Origin: a bacterium | Lineage (GTDB): Bacteria > SAR324 > XYD2-FULL-50-16 | DNA length: 45,944 nt | Reading direction: 5' to 3' | Assembly (NCBI GenBank): GCA_018830885.1 | Contig: JAHJRI010000355.1 | Span: forward strand, 1 to 45,944 | Shown here: positions 4,173 to 42,267 of the stretch, piece after piece | Layout: every line of letters starts with the position of its first letter | Numbering within the stretch: the first letter of the stretch is position 1 | Position numbers and translations under genes: made by a program | The notes under the pieces: generated by a model | Seen by the model: the letters and a program-made list of their open reading frames with translations, nothing else | What the model was told of the DNA's origin: nothing | Databases searched by the model: none

Positions 4173-6106
4173 ATCTGATCGCAAAACAGGAAAAGGATGG
4201 CCGCTACCTGTTGATGGGTAACGAAGCCATCGCCAGGGGAGCCCTGGAAGCAGGTGTTGCTGTGGCAGCGGGTTATCCTGGGACGCCTTCTTCTGAGATT
4301 ATTGAAAATCTGGCCCGGGTCACAACGGAAAGGGATCTGTATGTGGAATGGTCCACCAATGAAAAGGTTGCGATGGAGGTGGCCGCAGCCGGATCCTTTG
4401 CAGAACTGAGATCGCTGTGCATCCTCAAACAGAACGGGGTCAATGTTGCTTCCGATTTCTTTCTGCACCTGGCCGGATCCGGAACCCGGGGTGGCATGGT
4501 GATTATACCCTGCGAGGATCCGGGTGCGCTCTCCAGTATTAACGAGGGAGACAGCCGACATTTTTCCAGGATGCTGGAGGTCCCGCTGATCGAACCGGGC
4601 AATTTTCAGGAAGCCAAGGACATGACCAAATGGGCCTTCGAACTTTCCGAAACCCTGCGCTGCCCTGTGATGCTGCGCAGTGTTACACGTCTCTCCCACG
4701 CCAGCGGCAATGTTGTCTTCGGGGAGCTTCCGGTGACTCATCACAAGGCCCGATTTCAGCATGACGGGTTCATCCTGGATCCGGACACCGGTATGATCAG
4801 CAGCGCCCCGGTAGCTTACCGGCACGGGTTACAGCAGGAAAAGCTGCAGAAGGCCATCGAACTGTTCGAAACCTCCCCCTTCAACACCTATACCGGTCCG
4901 GAAAACCCCGAGCTGCTGGTTATTACCAGTTCCGCCTGCAATCTCTATACGAAAGAGGCGATCCAGCTTCTGGATGTGGGGGACAGGGTCGGTCTGCTGA
5001 AACTGGGCACGACCTGGCCATTGCCACCCAAACTGCTGGGAAAATACCTGGCAACGACAGACAAGATTCTGATTGTGGAGGAAGTAATCCCTTTCCTGGA
5101 AGAAAATGTAAAGATCCTGGCTGCTGAAACGGCTGAGACCATCGGAATTAAAAAGTTTTACGGTAAGCGGGATGGCTCGATCCCTTCAGTAAACGAATTG
5201 AACCCGGACCTGGTGATCACCGCTCTGGCCAATATTCTGGAATTGAACTACGAAGGGGTGGCTGCCGCTTACACGGAAAAAGCCCTGCCCCTTGCATTTC
5301 TGAACGCCCCCGTCAGGGACCTTACATTCTGCCCGGGCTGCCCTCATCGGGCCTCTTTCTGGAATATCCGCACTGTCCTGAAGAAAGACAACCGCGAGGG
5401 GTTTGTCTGTGGAGATATCGGCTGCTACAGCCTCGCCATGCTCCCCACCGGTTTCAGTACCACCAAGACGATGCATGCAATGGGATCGGGGACGGGGATT
5501 GCCAGTGGTTTTGGGCAACTGGCCCGCTTTGGCATGGATCAGCCGGTACTTTCAGTCTGTGGAGACTCCACGTTCTTCCACGCTGTCATGCCGGCACTGG
5601 TAAACGCCGTGCATCACAAGTCCGATATCACACTGATCGTGCTCGATAACAGCGGTACGGCCATGACCGGCTTTCAGCCTCATCCGGGGCTGGAGGTTGA
5701 TGCGCAGGGGAGTGAGGCGCTGAAACTGGATATACAGGCTATTTGCGAGTCCATGGGCGCCACGGTGCAGGTCACGGATCCTTTCGATTTTAAAGCGACC
5801 CAGAATGCGCTGTTTGAGATGCTGCAAATTAAATCCGGGGTCAAGGTCCTGGTCCTGAAACAGTCCTGCGCACTCAGTCCTGAGAAAAAGCATACACGGC
5901 GATTTGAAATGTCGGTTGACTCAGCCAGCTGTCTGGGAGAGGACTGTGGCTGTAACCGTCTCTGTACAAGAATTTTCAGATGTCCGGGACTGGTCTGGGA
6001 CAAAGTGAACGGAATTTCAAAAATTGATGACGCGATCTGCTCCGGTTGTGGGGTCTGCGCGTCGATCTGCCCTGTCGGGGCGATTGAAAAAAGGGAGGTG
6101 GCATAA
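4169..6106 (+). CDS. iorA: Indolepyruvate ferredoxin oxidoreductase, alpha subunit (copy 1)
   Basis: A 645-residue alpha subunit of indolepyruvate:ferredoxin oxidoreductase, which decarboxylates aryl 2-oxo acids (indolepyruvate, phenylpyruvate, 4-hydroxyphenylpyruvate) to aryl-acetyl-CoA while reducing ferredoxin. The N-terminal pyrimidine-binding domain contains GYPGTPSSEI and EWSTNEKVAMEVA. The thiamine diphosphate domain shows CPGCPHRASFW, CGDIGCY, CGDSTFFHA and LDNSGTAMTG. A C-terminal ferredoxin domain carries CLGEDCGCNRLC and CSGCGVCASIC (Cys624, 627, 630, 634). Full length for the family. It overlaps the frhB-like gene by four bases and is followed after two bases by iorB, so the three are one translational unit. 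A second alpha subunit lies 6 kb downstream. Confidence 0.95.
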   Translation: MNLIAKQEKDGRYLLMGNEAIARGALEAGVAVAAGYPGTPSSEIIENLARVTTERDLYVEWSTNEKVAMEVAAAGSFAELRSLCILKQNGVNVASDFFLHLAGSGTRGGMVIIPCEDPGALSSINEGDSRHFSRMLEVPLIEPGNFQEAKDMTKWAFELSETLRCPVMLRSVTRLSHASGNVVFGELPVTHHKARFQHDGFILDPDTGMISSAPVAYRHGLQQEKLQKAIELFETSPFNTYTGPENPELLVITSSACNLYTKEAIQLLDVGDRVGLLKLGTTWPLPPKLLGKYLATTDKILIVEEVIPFLEENVKILAAETAETIGIKKFYGKRDGSIPSVNELNPDLVITALANILELNYEGVAAAYTEKALPLAFLNAPVRDLTFCPGCPHRASFWNIRTVLKKDNREGFVCGDIGCYSLAMLPTGFSTTKTMHAMGSGTGIASGFGQLARFGMDQPVLSVCGDSTFFHAVMPALVNAVHHKSDITLIVLDNSGTAMTGFQPHPGLEVDAQGSEALKLDIQAICESMGATVQVTDPFDFKATQNALFEMLQIKSGVKVLVLKQSCALSPEKKHTRRFEMSVDSASCLGEDCGCNRLCTRIFRCPGLVWDKVNGISKIDDAICSGCGVCASICPVGAIEKREVA

Positions 6107-10108: not shown

Positions 10109-10651
10109 GTGCAGATACTCAAATCGGTGGTGGTCTTCATCGATAATATAAATGACTGGCTCGGCCGCATACTGGCGCTGGGCATCCTGGTGATGTTTGT
10201 GCTGGTACTGTCGGAAGTAATTCGCCGTTACTTTTTTAATGCACCCACCGTATGGGGCAACGAGCTGACACAACTGGTTTTTGGAACGTATCTGATTTTA
10301 TCTGGTGGCTACATTCTCAGATTCAATGGTCATGTCAATGTGGATATCATCTACTCGCAGTTTTCCATCAGAACCAAAGCGATGCTGGATATCGCCACAT
10401 TTTTCCTCTTTCTTCTGTTCTGCGGAATGCTGTTCGTATACGGCGGCCAGTTAGCCCTGGAATCCCTGAGTACCCTGGAGCATTCCCAGTCGGCCTGGAA
10501 CCCGCCCCTGTATCCGTTCAAACTGATGATTCCATTAGGCGCATTCTTACTGATCATTCAAGGACTGGCCAAGTTAGCGCGGGACATTTTCATACTGATA
10601 ACTGGCACAGAACTCACAACCACCCTAACCGCGAGCAAGGAATCGTTATGA
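10109..10651 (+). CDS. dctQ: TRAP transporter small permease subunit (DctQ family)
   Basis: A 180-residue membrane protein with four predicted transmembrane segments, the usual DctQ design. Recognisable features are FIDNINDWLGRI, the EVIRRYFF segment after the first helix, and WGNELTQLVFGTYLILSGGYIL. GTG 10109 is preferred: it has GGAGGG five bases upstream and gives a normal family length. An in-frame TTG at 10031 would add 26 residues without membrane character. Its stop overlaps the dctM start (ATGA), so the two permease subunits are translationally coupled. DctQ pairs with DctM in the cytoplasmic membrane. Confidence 0.88.
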   Translation: MQILKSVVVFIDNINDWLGRILALGILVMFVLVLSEVIRRYFFNAPTVWGNELTQLVFGTYLILSGGYILRFNGHVNVDIIYSQFSIRTKAMLDIATFFLFLLFCGMLFVYGGQLALESLSTLEHSQSAWNPPLYPFKLMIPLGAFLLIIQGLAKLARDIFILITGTELTTTLTASKESL

Positions 10652-11961
10652 GCATTGAACTTCTCACTTTTCTTTTTTTCGCGTCCCTGTTCCTCTTTCT
10701 TTTCTCGGGCTTACCGCTTTCGTTTGTGCTCGGTGGGGTTTCCGTGATCTTTTTATGGGCGACATGGGGACCGGATGCTTTTTACATGGTGGCCGCGCAA
10801 ACCTGGGGAACGATGGAGAAATTCACCCTGGTCGCCATTCCCCTCTTTATATTCATGGCGATGATTCTCGAACGTTCCGGAACCGCCAACGATCTTTATG
10901 AGATGATGTACCTCTGGTTCGGGCCGGTGAGAGGTGGACTGGTGATTGGAACACTGGTGATCTGCGCTATTTTTTCCGCCATGTGTGGTATCAGCGGTGC
11001 CGCTGTGGTCAGCATGGGCGCCATCGCTCTGCCGTCAATGCTTGAACGGGGATACGACAAACGAATGGCCGTAGGGTGTATTAATTCTGGCGGGGGTTGG
11101 GGCATATTGATCCCACCCAGCGTCATTATGATTCTGTATTCTCTGATCACCGGTGAATCGGTGGGCAGGATGTTTGCAGGCGGCGTGTTCCCCGGTCTGC
11201 TGCTGTTGACCATTGTTTCAACCTATGTCATTGTGCGCTGTTATTTCCAACCGCATCTGGGACCGGCATTGCCCCCTGAACAGCGCGGTGACTGGCCTAA
11301 AAAGATCAAGGCGTTAAAAGCGATTATTTTACCGGTCGGTATCGTGATTGCCGTTCTCGGCTCCATTATTATCGGATTGACGACCCCCACCGAAGCGGCG
11401 GCGATTGGACTGCTGGGATCACTGATTTCAGCTGTCGTGTATCGGCGACTGACATGGGATCTGATCTGGGAATCCAGCCTGCGCACATTTAAGTTGACCG
11501 GCATGATCATGTGGATATTGATTGGCGCATACAGTTTCACCGCAGCCTACCACAGCATGGGCGCCACCCATCTCATCGAAAGTATCATGAGTCATGTGCC
11601 GGGCGGTCCATGGGGTACAATTATCTTCATTCAGCTGATTTTACTGGTCCTGGGGATGGTTCTGGATCCTGCCGGCATCATGATGATCACTGTGCCGGTG
11701 TTTCTGCCGATCATCAAGGCCCATGGCTTCGATCCGCTGTGGTTCGGTATCCTCTTCATCATGAACATGAACATTGGCTACATGACGCCTCCCTTCGGAT
11801 TCAACCTCTTTTACCTGAAAGCCATCGTGCCGCCTTCGGTCACCATGGGGGATATCTACCGGTCTGTGACGCCTTTTGTGATATTGGAATGTACAGGCAT
11901 GTTTCTGGTGATGTTCTTCCCGGAAATTGCAACGTGGCTACCCAACCGGTTCTTTAAATAA
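10648..11961 (+). CDS. dctM: TRAP transporter large permease subunit (DctM family)
   Basis: A 437-residue polytopic membrane protein, the channel subunit of the TRAP transporter, with about twelve hydrophobic segments. Family features include FSGLPLSFVLGG at the N terminus, FSAMCGISGAAVVSMGAIALPSM, PPSVIMILYS, TPTEAAAIG and, near the C terminus, GMVLDPAGIMMITVPVF and IGYMTPPFGFNLFYL. The Na+-coupled uptake partner of DctP and DctQ. The ATG lies inside the dctQ stop. No clear terminator follows. Confidence 0.94.
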   Translation: MSIELLTFLFFASLFLFLFSGLPLSFVLGGVSVIFLWATWGPDAFYMVAAQTWGTMEKFTLVAIPLFIFMAMILERSGTANDLYEMMYLWFGPVRGGLVIGTLVICAIFSAMCGISGAAVVSMGAIALPSMLERGYDKRMAVGCINSGGGWGILIPPSVIMILYSLITGESVGRMFAGGVFPGLLLLTIVSTYVIVRCYFQPHLGPALPPEQRGDWPKKIKALKAIILPVGIVIAVLGSIIIGLTTPTEAAAIGLLGSLISAVVYRRLTWDLIWESSLRTFKLTGMIMWILIGAYSFTAAYHSMGATHLIESIMSHVPGGPWGTIIFIQLILLVLGMVLDPAGIMMITVPVFLPIIKAHGFDPLWFGILFIMNMNIGYMTPPFGFNLFYLKAIVPPSVTMGDIYRSVTPFVILECTGMFLVMFFPEIATWLPNRFFK

Positions 11962-12065
11962 AAACGGTGTCGCCAATCACGCTTGAACCTGACGTTGTCT
12001 TTGGTTGAGAATAGCACCGGTTCATATCAGTCGCGGGTCAACACCGCGATATCATTCTCATGGTC

Positions 12066-12128
12066 CGTTGTGGCCCCACCTGGGGCATGCTGATTTGTAT
12101 GAAAAACACGCATCACAAAGACACGGAG
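12066..12128 (+). repeat. Family-2 dispersed repeat, copy 1 (interrupted)
   Basis: The 30-nt block at 12099-12128 (ATGAAAAACAC...AGACACGGAG) matches 25112-25141 at 27 of 30 positions. It is preceded by a CGTTGTG-hairpin-GGCATG block (12066-12101) that matches 25198-25232. A third block, GCTTTATGACAGG... at 12327-12353, matches 25155-25181 at 24 of 27. The block order differs from the second copy, and the palindromic element at 12154-12324 splits this copy. Confidence 0.65.
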
Positions 12129-12153
12129 ATAATGGAGAAAAATAAGTTCTGCT

Positions 12154-12324
12154 GAGTCGATGTCGTTGACTTCAGCAACTGTTTCCACAACAACAGTTCC
12201 GGTTTTCAAGAAACGCATGAATCCTTCCTGGAGCTCCTGGAAGCCATCCCTGGCTTCCAACGTTCTTGAAACCCGGCACCGTTGGTGCTTCGCAAGAACA
12301 GGTTGTTGAAGTTAACGGTATTGC
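12154..12324 (-). repeat. Apex-core palindromic element, copy 2
   Basis: A near-complete palindrome of about 171 bp in reverse orientation relative to the other copies. The inner core includes GAGCTC and the TGGAAGCCA/TGGCTTCCA hairpin. Inner arms are 12191-12212 and 12263-12284 (19 of 22 pair, plus one wobble). The arms continue outward: CGTTGACTTCAGCAAC (12164-12179) pairs with GTTGTTGAAGTTAACG (12302-12317), the mismatches being G-T wobbles. The element is bounded by imperfect direct repeats TCTGCT and CCTGCT and interrupts a family-2 repeat, which suggests insertion. Confidence 0.75.
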
Positions 12325-12414
12325 CTGCTTTATGACAGGCAGGGGAATGCATCTGCAACAACGGCGCTTGATGGCGCCACGAATTAAAATGGTACCCAAC
12401 AGGATGGAGAACGT

Positions 12415-14352
12415 GTGACAAAACAGACAGAAACCGGGAGCGCATCGGGTCGTCTCTTAATGGGCAATGAGGCTATCGCCAGAGGCGCCCTGGAAGCTGG
12501 AATGAGTGTAGCCGCCGGTTATCCGGGAACCCCGTCTTCCGAAATTATTGAGAGCCTGGCGAAGGTGGCAAGGGATCGCAACCTCTACGTGGAATGGTCG
12601 GTCAACGAAAAAGTGGCGATGGAAGTGGCAGCGGCAGCTTCCTTTGCAGAATTGCGGTCGATCTGCGTTTTAAAACAGAATGGGCTGCATGTGGCATCCG
12701 ATTTTCTGCTCCATCTTGCCGGATCAGGCACCCGGGGCGGCATGCTGATTATCGCCTGCGATGATCCCGGGGCGCTGTCCAGTGTGAATGAAGGCGATAC
12801 CCGTCACTTTGCCAGGATGATTGAATTCCCGTTGTTGGAACCAGGAGATTTCCAGGAAGCCAAGGACATGACCAAATGGGCGTTCGAACTTTCAGAAGCG
12901 TTGCAGAGTATCGTGATGGTGCGTAGTGTCACCCGTATCTCCCATGCCAGTGGCAATGTGATGCTGGGCGAACTGCCCGACACCGGACAGCAGGCGCGGT
13001 TCAGACACAACGGGCCCCCGCTGGATCCACACCGGGGCACCATGTCCAGTTCTCCGGTAAGTATCAAGCATGCTTTGCAGCATAAAAAGCTGCAGAAAGC
13101 GGTCGCCGCCTTTGAAACGTCGCCGTTCAATACATACCAGGGACCGAATAAACCGGAACTGCTGATTATCACCAGTTCTGCCTGTAACCTGTACAGCAGG
13201 GAAGCCATTCATCTCATGGGGGTGAAGGATCGGGTGGGCATCTTGAAACTGGGGACGACATGGCCGTTGCCACCCAAACTGATCGAGAAGTACCTGTGTC
13301 TGACCGACAAAATACTGATTGTGGAAGAGGTCATTCCCTTTCTGGAGGAAAATATCAAGATCCTGGCTTTTGAATTGGCAGGAACCATCGGCAGCAAGAC
13401 CATTTATGGAAAAAGAGACGGCCTGATCCCTTCGGTGGGAGAGATGAATCCCGATCTGGTACTTGCAGCGCTGGCCAGCATCCTCAAAATTCCATACAGT
13501 GCGACGTCCTCGGCTTATGCAGAGAAAACCGCACTGGCCGAATCGACCGTCGTACCAAAAAGAGATCCGGCATACTGCGCCGGCTGTCCCCATCGGGCGT
13601 CCTACTGGTCGATCAATATTGCACTGGGACTGGACAACCAGAATGGTTTTGTGTGCGGTGATATCGGCTGTTACACCATGGATCGCAGACCCAGCGGATT
13701 TCAGACGATCAAGACCGTTCATGCCATGGGATCGGGAACCGGTATTGCGAGCGGTTTTGGTAAACTGCAGCAGTTTGGGATGGACCAACCGGTGATGGCC
13801 GTTTGCGGCGATTCCACCTTTTTCCACGCCGTGATCCCCGCCCTGGTGAATGCCGTCCACAACAATTCCGCCATCACCCTTGCGGTACTGGATAACAGCG
13901 GCACGGCGATGACCGGGTTTCAGCCCCATCCGGGTCTGGATATCTCCCTGCAGGGGGACATTGCGACAAAAGTCAGTATCGAGGATATCTGCCGGGCAAT
14001 CGGGGCCACCGTCGAACTCTGTGACCCATTTGATCTGGAGAAGACCCAGCAGTCACTGCTGAAGGCGCTGGAGAATAAGGAGGGGGTGAATGTTCTGATT
14101 TTTCGCCAGAAATGCGCCTTGAGTCCCGAGAAAAAAGGAACCCGGTTTTTTGATGTCCGCATCGATCCAGCATTGTGCCAGGGGGAAAATTGCGGCTGCA
14201 ACCGGATCTGTACGCGTATCTTCAAGTGCCCCGGCCTCATCTGGAACCCGGTGAGAAACATGACGGAGATCGATGAAGCGATCTGCACAGGCTGCGGGGT
14301 CTGCGCCTCAGTATGTCCGATCGGGGCGATTGAGGCAGTTGATTTGCGTTAA
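12415..14352 (+). CDS. iorA: Indolepyruvate ferredoxin oxidoreductase, alpha subunit (copy 2)
   Basis: A second 645-residue IorA, by eye roughly 70% identical to copy 1 and of exactly the same length. All expected motifs are intact: GYPGTPSSEI, CAGCPHRASYW, CGDIGCY, CGDSTFFHA, LDNSGTAMTG and the C-terminal clusters CQGENCGCNRIC and CTGCGVCASVC. GTG start with GGATGGAGA upstream. No iorB follows; instead the gene converges with an aminotransferase, their stop codons overlapping by four bases. It may share the single iorB at 6109, or act on a different 2-oxo acid. Differences cluster around residues 200-220 and 365-380. The separate leader and hairpins suggest independent regulation from copy 1. 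Confidence 0.94.
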   Translation: MTKQTETGSASGRLLMGNEAIARGALEAGMSVAAGYPGTPSSEIIESLAKVARDRNLYVEWSVNEKVAMEVAAAASFAELRSICVLKQNGLHVASDFLLHLAGSGTRGGMLIIACDDPGALSSVNEGDTRHFARMIEFPLLEPGDFQEAKDMTKWAFELSEALQSIVMVRSVTRISHASGNVMLGELPDTGQQARFRHNGPPLDPHRGTMSSSPVSIKHALQHKKLQKAVAAFETSPFNTYQGPNKPELLIITSSACNLYSREAIHLMGVKDRVGILKLGTTWPLPPKLIEKYLCLTDKILIVEEVIPFLEENIKILAFELAGTIGSKTIYGKRDGLIPSVGEMNPDLVLAALASILKIPYSATSSAYAEKTALAESTVVPKRDPAYCAGCPHRASYWSINIALGLDNQNGFVCGDIGCYTMDRRPSGFQTIKTVHAMGSGTGIASGFGKLQQFGMDQPVMAVCGDSTFFHAVIPALVNAVHNNSAITLAVLDNSGTAMTGFQPHPGLDISLQGDIATKVSIEDICRAIGATVELCDPFDLEKTQQSLLKALENKEGVNVLIFRQKCALSPEKKGTRFFDVRIDPALCQGENCGCNRICTRIFKCPGLIWNPVRNMTEIDEAICTGCGVCASVCPIGAIEAVDLR

Positions 14353-17397: not shown

Positions 17398-17847
17398 CTG
17401 GTCCACTCGGATGTCAGCGGCAGCGCGGCTCAGCTGGAATGAGGCGAACCTGGCCGGTTCAGCGGGTCATCGCCGCCAGGGATGCACAACGACCTGTCTT
17501 TCTGACCGGGTTCAGTCGGGTGACTGTCCCGGACAGAAACCCTTGTTGTTCCTCCGGGAGATTCGACGCGGATTGGTCTGCTGCTGGTCCCGGATTCTGA
17601 AGCGATTACAGCACCCGCTTTTCCATGGCCACGCCCCCAGCATCCGATTTTCCTTTTGACTGTGTTACCGGAAAAATTCCTGCCTGTTCAGCTCATCTCA
17701 ACCAACACTCCCTGCCGGGCAAAACGAAGGAAAAAAGCAGTTCTGCGCCGCCATTTTCCTTCCTTTGTGCATTTCAATATTTTTATATCATTATATCAGT
17801 TATATATTCACTTCCGTGAACTTAAACAACCGTCTCTTGCTGAGCAC

Positions 17848-17912
17848 CACCGGTTCCGGTTTTCAAGAACCCTGGAAGAATGAATGCGTTTCTTGAAAAT
17901 CGCAACTGTTCG
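17848..17912 (+). repeat. Apex-core palindromic element, copy 3 (internally deleted)
   Basis: Left inner arm 17848-17869 (ending GGTTTTCAAGAA) pairs with 17890-17912 (starting TTCTTGAAAATCGCAAC). The core is shortened to CCCTGGAAGAATGAATGCGT, missing the second half of the GGAAGCC hairpin and the GAGCTC palindrome. Two arm differences are G-T wobbles. Outer arms are not clearly palindromic, so this copy looks decayed. Confidence 0.7.
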
Positions 17913-17937
17913 TACGGAACCATTCGCTTAAGGGCAC

Positions 17938-18069
17938 CTTGATTAAATGGTACTCCGTCAGCATCAAAGGATCGGTGTTTCAAGAACCCTGGAAGCCATG
18001 GATGGACTCGTGCGTTTCTTGAAAGATCAACCCTTTGGTGCGGAAGTTCAATAATTCTAATGAATCAAG
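17938..18069 (+). repeat. Apex-core palindromic element, copy 4
   Basis: Inner arms 17965-17986 and 18016-18038 share the TTTCAAGAA/TTCTTGAAA base and CAAAGG/CCTTTGG further out. The palindrome continues to CTTGATT (17938-17944) pairing with AATCAAG (18063-18069). The core is CCCTGGAAGCCATGGATGG followed by a degenerate ACTCGTGCG, with GTG in place of the ATG of other copies. Confidence 0.72.
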
Positions 18070-18286
18070 ATGGCCTTTGGTGAACGCATGGGTTATATAT
18101 GATCATTTCACGTCAAAGCCCCCCTATCAGTATCGAAATATGGAAGAACCCAAAATGATCTGTTTTACTGTTCATTTTAATCTATTCATTATTCTTTTTT
18201 TATACCTAATCTGCCTCTTATAATTGAACTGTATCTTTCAAAGTGGGAAAGATCTTATTCATCACCGTTTCTTTCAGGAGCAGAAT

Positions 18287-25095: not shown

Positions 25096-25111
25096 AATGC
25101 ACCTCCTTATT

Positions 25112-25232
25112 ATGAAAAACACTCACCACAGAGACACGGAGAAAGATAAGCTCAGCTTTATGACAGGTACGGAAATGCATCGCTATTTCTCCTCCTTCGT
25201 TGTGCCCGCCCGCGGGCATGATGGTTTGTATG
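25112..25232 (+). repeat. Family-2 dispersed repeat, copy 2 (uninterrupted)
   Basis: Three blocks shared with 12066-12353: ATGAAAAACAC...AGACACGGAG at 25112-25141, GCTTTATGACAGG... at 25155-25181, and CGTTGTGCCC-hairpin-GGGCATG at 25198-25232. Here the first two blocks are 13 bp apart; in copy 1 they are separated by the palindromic element. The hairpin block is at the opposite end from copy 1. A weaker match to the hairpin block occurs near 45425. Confidence 0.6.
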
Positions 25233-37441: not shown

Positions 37442-37607
37442 AATGATTATTGTATCTATTCAGTTCGATTTCCACGCAGCCCCTAAGGTATTGTGTTTCA
37501 AGAACCCTGGAAGCCATGAATGGCTTCCAGGAGCTCCAGGAGGATTCATGCGTTTCTTGAAACACAATACCTTTGGGGCGTATACAGATGAATAGTTACT
37601 GATGATT
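37442..37607 (+). repeat. Apex-core palindromic element, copy 5 (best preserved)
   Basis: The inner arms 37480-37504 and 37554-37578 match at 24 of 25 positions. Outside these, CTATTCA (37456-37462) pairs with TGAATAG (37589-37595), and weaker symmetry reaches about 37442 and 37607. The core holds an 11-bp hairpin CTGGAAGCCAT-GA-ATGGCTTCCAG, then GGAGCTCC, then AGGAGG and ATG (37548). The ATG opens a 15-residue frame MRFLKHNTFGAYTDE ending at TAG 37593-37595. Confidence 0.85.
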
Positions 37608-41907: not shown

Positions 41908-42267
41908 AATCTCAACCCCGGTTCATTGTGATTGTTCCTGAAGTGTGTATATATCACCGTATGTAGAAATACTCAAGTGTCTGCTGTCGCGGGGTACACC
42001 AAATATATGTGGGTACCTGTAAGCGGAAAGAGGTTGTTTGTTCAGAAAACCTTGGGAGCCAGGGATGGATTCCAGGAGCTCCAAGGATGGAATCATGCGT
42101 TTTTCTGAATAAATAACCGCTTGAAGCGGTTATGATCACAACCCCACATGTTTTTGGTGCACGCCTGTCGCGATTCGACAAGGCAACAGCCTGTTTTTCG
42201 ACCGTATCCCAGACAGCATTCTGGTCTTTGCTGCCTGTCAAAAGAGATCGGCTTACCCCAATCCCAC
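41908..42267. other. 360-bp gap inside the sugar-acid cluster
   Basis: No gene is supported. Nearly half is palindromic element copy 6 (41992-42164). The rest (42173-42267) shows nothing recognisable. The gap is large for an operon in which neighbouring genes are 7-27 bp apart. Confidence 0.65.
41992..42164 (+). repeat. Apex-core palindromic element, copy 6 with 8-bp flanking repeat
   Basis: The ends are inverted repeats matching at about 18 of 22 positions (GTACACCAAATATATGTGGG at 41994-42013 against CCCACATG...GGTGCAC at 42143-42162). Inner arms 42028-42049 and 42101-42122 pair with one mismatch and two wobbles. Here the arm base is TTCAGAAAA rather than TTTCAAGAA, and its partner has changed to match. 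CTGTCGCG occurs as a direct repeat immediately outside both ends (41984-41991 and 42165-42172). ATAACCGCT/AGCGGTTAT (42113-42133) is a competing perfect hairpin. Confidence 0.8.

Follow-up and report, generated by a model that had tools for sequence, protein, structure and literature searches.

Several described systems come close to the locus studied here, in which a palindromic element, P, lies inside a second repeat, family-2. The pneumococcal repeats BOX, RUP and SPRITE are small, clustered and inserted into one another (PMC3049150); the nesting is as here, but the sequences differ, and section 8 of that paper does not describe a nested fusion spreading as one unit. Tn3-derived TIMEs are non-autonomous miniatures that form mosaic elements (PMC4133298); as presented in that source they are Tn3-type and their composites are built from two flanking copies, whereas here one element sits within another repeat. 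The Chunjie MITE of Geobacter uraniireducens measures 178–235 bp and has conserved ends and duplications (PMC10969869), and by the description given there it resembles P in its MITE size, its conserved ends and its duplications. The IS4 subgroup of the IS4 family is listed in Table 1 of PMC2266710 with ends of the form -AATR--------WTW and target duplications of 10–13 bp. Its end signature and duplication length are like those of P (CAATGTCGTTAACTTAAG and 10 bp), but its elements are 1400–1650 bp long and carry a DDE transposase with a YREK motif, whereas P has 166 bp and no transposase. Finally, REP/BIME repeats are reported to be moved by Y1 (RAYT) transposases. Family-2, rather than P, may resemble them, since it combines a short hairpin (R) with mosaic arrays and lacks a target duplication; no Y1 transposase locus with family-2 repeats was found here. 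Among the matches listed in our literature search there was no closer case of nested bacterial MITEs, and five P-end and block sequences did not occur in the literature searched.

The window, by which we mean the whole 45,944-nt stretch of DNA analysed, is one contig (C318) of a 7.41-Mb genome assembled in 496 contigs. The locus is bordered on one side by a DctM transporter gene (10252–11961) and on the other by a gene for a TPP/ferredoxin oxidoreductase (12415–14352), whose domains were identified in this analysis and which we take to be IorA-like. The best named relatives of this protein come from deltaproteobacterial and SAR324 metagenome bins, at no more than 69% identity, which places the organism only loosely; G. 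uraniireducens belongs to the former deltaproteobacteria. The window also holds an IorA-like paralogue pair, 4208–5694 and 12454–13940, lying 8.2 kb apart with about 75% DNA identity over the repeats found.

On the forward strand, the locus runs R hairpin, block A, TCTGCTGAGT, P, CCTGCTTTAT, block B. The R hairpin unit (12054–12098) ends in TTTGT directly before block A; similar hairpins with TTTGT ends occur at other loci. Block A, the left block of family-2 (12099–12147), starts with ATGAAAAACAC and is followed by the left target duplication, TCTGCTGAGT (12148–12157), and then by P itself (12158–12323), a palindromic IS4-like miniature element whose inner hairpin core (12203–12270) is common to palindromes with other outer arms. 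The right duplication remnant, CCTGCTTTAT (12324–12333), consists of a duplicated TCTGCT part and a TTAT part that belongs to the right arm of a second palindrome, Q; block B, the right block of family-2 (12327–12353), starts with this same Q arm and in this copy ends early, after GCATC. The initial annotation had recognized the two blocks with a palindrome between them at these positions, as sequence comparison confirmed, and had taken the palindrome for a discrete unit of about 171 bp bounded by TCTGCT and CCTGCT. The unit is indeed discrete, but it is precisely 166 bp long, and the two hexamers are the first six bases of its 10-bp flanks. A further palindromic module (TTCATATCAGTCGCGGGTCAACACCGCGATATCA) lies upstream of the R hairpin at 12021–12053, and modules of this type also precede R at four other loci (L035, L055, L062 and L063). 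Rfam gave no match anywhere in the window at gathering thresholds, and a search for promoters and terminators around the locus returned nothing above chance.

Element P and its IS4-like ends

P is a palindrome with strong folding potential: as DNA, the stretch containing it folds far better than shuffled sequences (z −4.2), and P alone, folded as RNA, reaches z −6.9 against shuffles. A 315-bp query over the region had at least 50 matches in the genome, most of them to the palindrome alone; this count is a lower bound, with 40 of 501 first candidates scored. Solo copies of P start with CAATGTCGTTAACTTAAG or a near-variant, finish with the inverse and have direct repeats on both flanks. Systematic pairing of such ends in the window and the loci examined gave 54 end-bounded elements, 53 of them 149–397 bp long and one a doubtful pair 1582 bp apart. 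Flank identity in the 53 testable elements was 0.83 at length 10, compared with 0.21–0.40 at other lengths, and in 41 of the 53 the 10-bp flanks were alike at 8 or more positions, a result reached in shuffles by a mean of 0.97 and a maximum of 5 elements. Genome-wide, P ends occur at 158 sites (78+80), against 4 (2+2) for a reversed control. P is thus a discrete mobile unit, with constant ends and 10-bp target duplications at many unrelated loci. The copy in the window lies within family-2, between TCTGCTGAGT and cCTGCTttAT; these two flanks agree at just 6 of 10 positions and are the remains of a target duplication.

P is short, has inverted ends, occurs in many copies and is flanked by 10-bp target duplications, as a MITE should be, and at 166 bp it is too short to hold a transposase gene and so has no coding capacity. 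It is a new family within a known kind of element. Both the ends and the length of the duplication are consistent with a non-autonomous miniature of the IS4 subgroup. The subgroup's end signature fits 73 of 108 ends, compared with a background of 0.03% in the window, and is found at both ends in 27 of the 54 elements, the full signature being missing at one or both ends in the other 27; the window copy starts CGATG, one base off the signature. The 10-bp duplication falls inside the subgroup's range of 10–13 bp.

No autonomous insertion sequence with P ends was found at 12 DDE_Tnp_1 loci, in a 496-contig assembly that may miss multi-copy insertion sequences. Two of the loci, L152 and L153, encode IS4-family transposases, but their flanks differ from P ends, and when the flanks of L152–L155 were searched for inverted repeats, only L154, an IS5-family locus, gave ends of interest. 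The 1582-bp end pair, at L164, does not appear to be an insertion sequence: its flanks agree at 5 of 10 positions and its largest open reading frame looks, by eye, like an AraC-like regulator.

P-like ends extend beyond this genome. P itself had matches in 3 of 192 genomes, two of which (G004 and G008) match only parts around the inner hairpin. An 18-mer of the P end, allowing at most one mismatch, had any site at all in 12 of the 192, and was repeated in a same-genus genome (10+13 sites), a same-family genome (13+9) and a same-class genome (37+30). The relatives' elements with P-like ends are small, and a good part of them have 10-bp duplications; their end sites comprised small elements, unpaired sites and three pairs more than 1 kb apart with flanks agreeing at no more than 6 of 10 positions, and no autonomous insertion sequence was among them. 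The same-class genome, G013, carries nearly the same ends on small elements of its own, roughly 155 bp long (for example at L269 and L276). The presence of P-like ends in so distant a genome suggests a widespread transposase family. No relative with the same arrangement of the DctM/IorA intergenic region was found; among the loci searched, four (L100, L108, L113 and L125) had DctM, and no P, family-2 or Q sequence was found at any locus of the whole set.

Family-2, palindrome Q and the compact copies

The blocks around P recur elsewhere in the window, block A matching 25111–25142 at 91% over 32 bp and block B matching 25155–25181 at 89%. This second copy (25112–25181, forward strand) is compact: it lacks P, and its blocks are joined at CAGCT. 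It is followed on the same strand by a family-2 end (25182–25229), the hairpin TGCCCGC-CC-GCGGGCA and then TTTGT. Many other copies of family-2 carry Q between the same two blocks. Q is also found solo, with related ends (CAATGCCATTTAGTTAAG) and 10-bp duplications. Alignment identified the start of block B, GCTTTATGACAGGCAC, as the right arm of Q, and GTGACTGTCATAGAGC as its left arm; arms of Q are recognizable in the alignment on both sides of the compact join. Judging junction sequences by eye, we counted seven compact copies joined at GCT, one of them degenerate (L006, L040–L043, L048 and the window copy at 25112), and three joined at TGAC (L045, L046 and L051). Deletion across a hairpin would be expected to leave breakpoints at short repeats around the palindrome, and the two breakpoints found here lie at just such repeats. 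Going by these junctions, the compact form at 25112 is best read as a product of Q deletion between short repeats, not as a pristine empty site.

These observations bear on how the insertion can be argued. The initial annotation had taken the 25112 copy to approximate the site before P arrived, and its argument would fail if other family-2 copies had the wide spacing without the palindrome. Such copies exist: among eight measurable long copies the distance between blocks was 161–206 bp in seven and 79 bp in one, compared with 198 bp in five and 172 bp in one of the six full composites of P and family-2. The similarly spaced copies hold a different palindrome, Q, so the case for insertion has to rest on other evidence. 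That evidence exists, since P occurs solo at unrelated loci with the same ends and 10-bp duplications, and the conclusion that the palindrome entered a family-2 repeat holds. A compact repeat copy should therefore not be taken for an empty site as a matter of course; the one examined here most likely arose by deletion itself.

No target duplication was found in 21 family-2 units. The right ends of family-2 have TTTGT in 20 of 32 cases and a stem of at least 5 in 16 of 32, although one of the 32 is probably a chance match. In many copies block A begins directly after TTTGT. A hairpin followed by TTTGT recalls REP or IS200/IS605-like ends, and we treat a REP- or IS200/IS605-like mode of movement as a lead only; none of the three Y1_Tnp matches in the genome has A or R repeats at its locus.

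How P came to lie within family-2

The composite is not a local event. The same junction between P and family-2 recurs at ten loci, each on a different contig (the window, L001–L006, L028, L035 and L221), six of which (the window and L001–L005) have both junctions; the right half at L028 is of type II, L035 breaks off, and the left side is missing at L006 and L221. The left flanks of the composites read TCTGCTGAGT or TCTGCTGAAT with single changes, and the right flanks depart from TCTGCTTTAT by one to three changes. A tree of 32 P copies, built from matches covering more than 120 of the 166 positions, places the seven nested copies in one group, requiring one change, and none of 500 shuffles was as low; branch support for the group is weak (82/25), and a single origin was recovered in 76% of bootstrap trees. 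Because the nested copies group on the tree, the simplest account is a single insertion that was later dispersed, and the composite was probably copied to about ten places after that one event.

We propose the following history, to which we assign a probability of roughly 0.75. An IS4-type DDE transposase supplied in trans would have cut P at both inverted ends and inserted it with a 10-bp target duplication. One P would have entered, at TCTGCTGAGT, a long family-2 copy that still had Q. The rest of Q would then have been deleted between GCT repeats, leaving TCTGCTGAGT, P and TCTGCT joined directly to TTATGACAGG, and this composite would have reached ten loci or more, probably copied by family-2's own mover. 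At 25112, Q would have been lost in the same manner from a copy that had no P. Entry into a long copy at TCTGCTGAGT followed by Q deletion at GCT accounts for both observed flanks. No composite with Q still present was found among the A-block loci read.

The form of family-2 that P entered is where the closest rival departs from this history. P could instead have been inserted into a compact copy at TCTGCTTTAT, with a 10-bp duplication whose left copy later became TCTGCTGAGT or GAAT. One compact copy (L006) reads exactly TCTGCTTTATGACAGG, and most composites have TCTGCTTTAT on their right; the L006 copy, however, could equally reflect loss of P via recombination between TCTGCT repeats. Entry into a compact copy predicts TCTGCTTTAT on both flanks, so the left one must have mutated to GAGT, which takes three changes that happen to rebuild the left arm of Q. 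In a target model built from 39 non-nested duplications, TCTGCTTTAT is a poor target, scoring −1.3 (63rd percentile), whereas TCTGCTGAGT scores 4.3, above 99.7% of the 10-mers in the window. In leave-one-out scoring, 10% of true targets did no better than TCTGCTTTAT, so the model favours the long form and does not prove it. Overall, we consider entry into a compact copy unlikely.

The good fit of TCTGCTGAGT to the target model would also suit several independent insertions of P at the same preferred site in different family-2 copies, and in a same-genus genome a different element lies in a similar target, GGTCAGCAGA (other strand). The clustering of nested copies on the tree and the identical right-side loss of Q in all six two-sided composites argue against this account, which we regard as the least probable. 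It is also improbable, if a little less so, that a single modular palindrome takes either P or Q as its centre, the two being swapped between copies by recombination or template switching with no transposition into family-2. Such swapping would be in keeping with the overlapping spacings of long and composite copies, the similar left flanks of P and Q (GCTGAGTCAATGTC and GCTGAGTGACTGTC) and the mixing of arms of different palindrome types on 6 of 60 hairpin cores; yet solo P has 10-bp duplications at many unrelated loci, and the ends of P inside family-2 are its exact solo ends, flanked by the repeated TCTGCT.

With P entering a long family-2 copy, a nested palindrome from an uncultured lineage can be resolved into ordered steps, in which one palindrome is inserted with a 10-bp duplication, an older one is lost and the fusion disperses. 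Nesting of this sort is ordinary, its history here is instructive, and the genome that hosts it is unusually rich in repeats.

The inner hairpin and its outer arms

The presence of one hairpin core with several sets of outer arms is an odder feature than the nesting itself. In the window and the loci examined we counted 60 copies of P's inner hairpin, 26 of them flanked by P arms on each side; the remaining cores have arms of type II, of two further types or of a kind left unnamed by the classifier, and 6 of the 60 have two different named arms. This sample is biased, because loci were chosen by their likeness to P and family-2. Mixed-arm elements elsewhere in the genome (L023, L032, L033, L034, L036 and L178) offer a natural place for studying how miniature transposons swap ends. 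The initial annotation had palindromes in general arriving as discrete units, which applies to P and not to every palindrome in the window: what the others have in common with P is mainly the inner hairpin, and the outer arms of most are different. Three such palindromes, at 1–95, 37460–37600 and 41990–42130, combine P's inner hairpin with arms of types III and IV.

At L154 (1–1344), an IS5-family transposase gene lies between ends, AAGGGCACYTTGATTAATT, that equal the outer arms of type-II palindromes, and this element is likely, by its ends, to be their autonomous partner. A tentative possibility, which we hold to be less than even, is that a shared hairpin cassette acquired the ends of different transposase families via arm exchange at the core, and that nested composites were dispersed by a third system, possibly that of the hairpin and TTTGT. 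The end sets in question are the IS4-like one with 10-bp duplications, the one matching the IS5-family element and the two further arm types. If this were so, one cassette would ride on several transposition systems.

The window holds a second nested case, on the reverse strand. Here a P-type element at 17809–18091, whose flanking duplication matches at 9 of 10 positions (GTTATATATT and GTTATATATG), contains a type-II palindrome (17930–18077) that interrupts it at CTTAAG.
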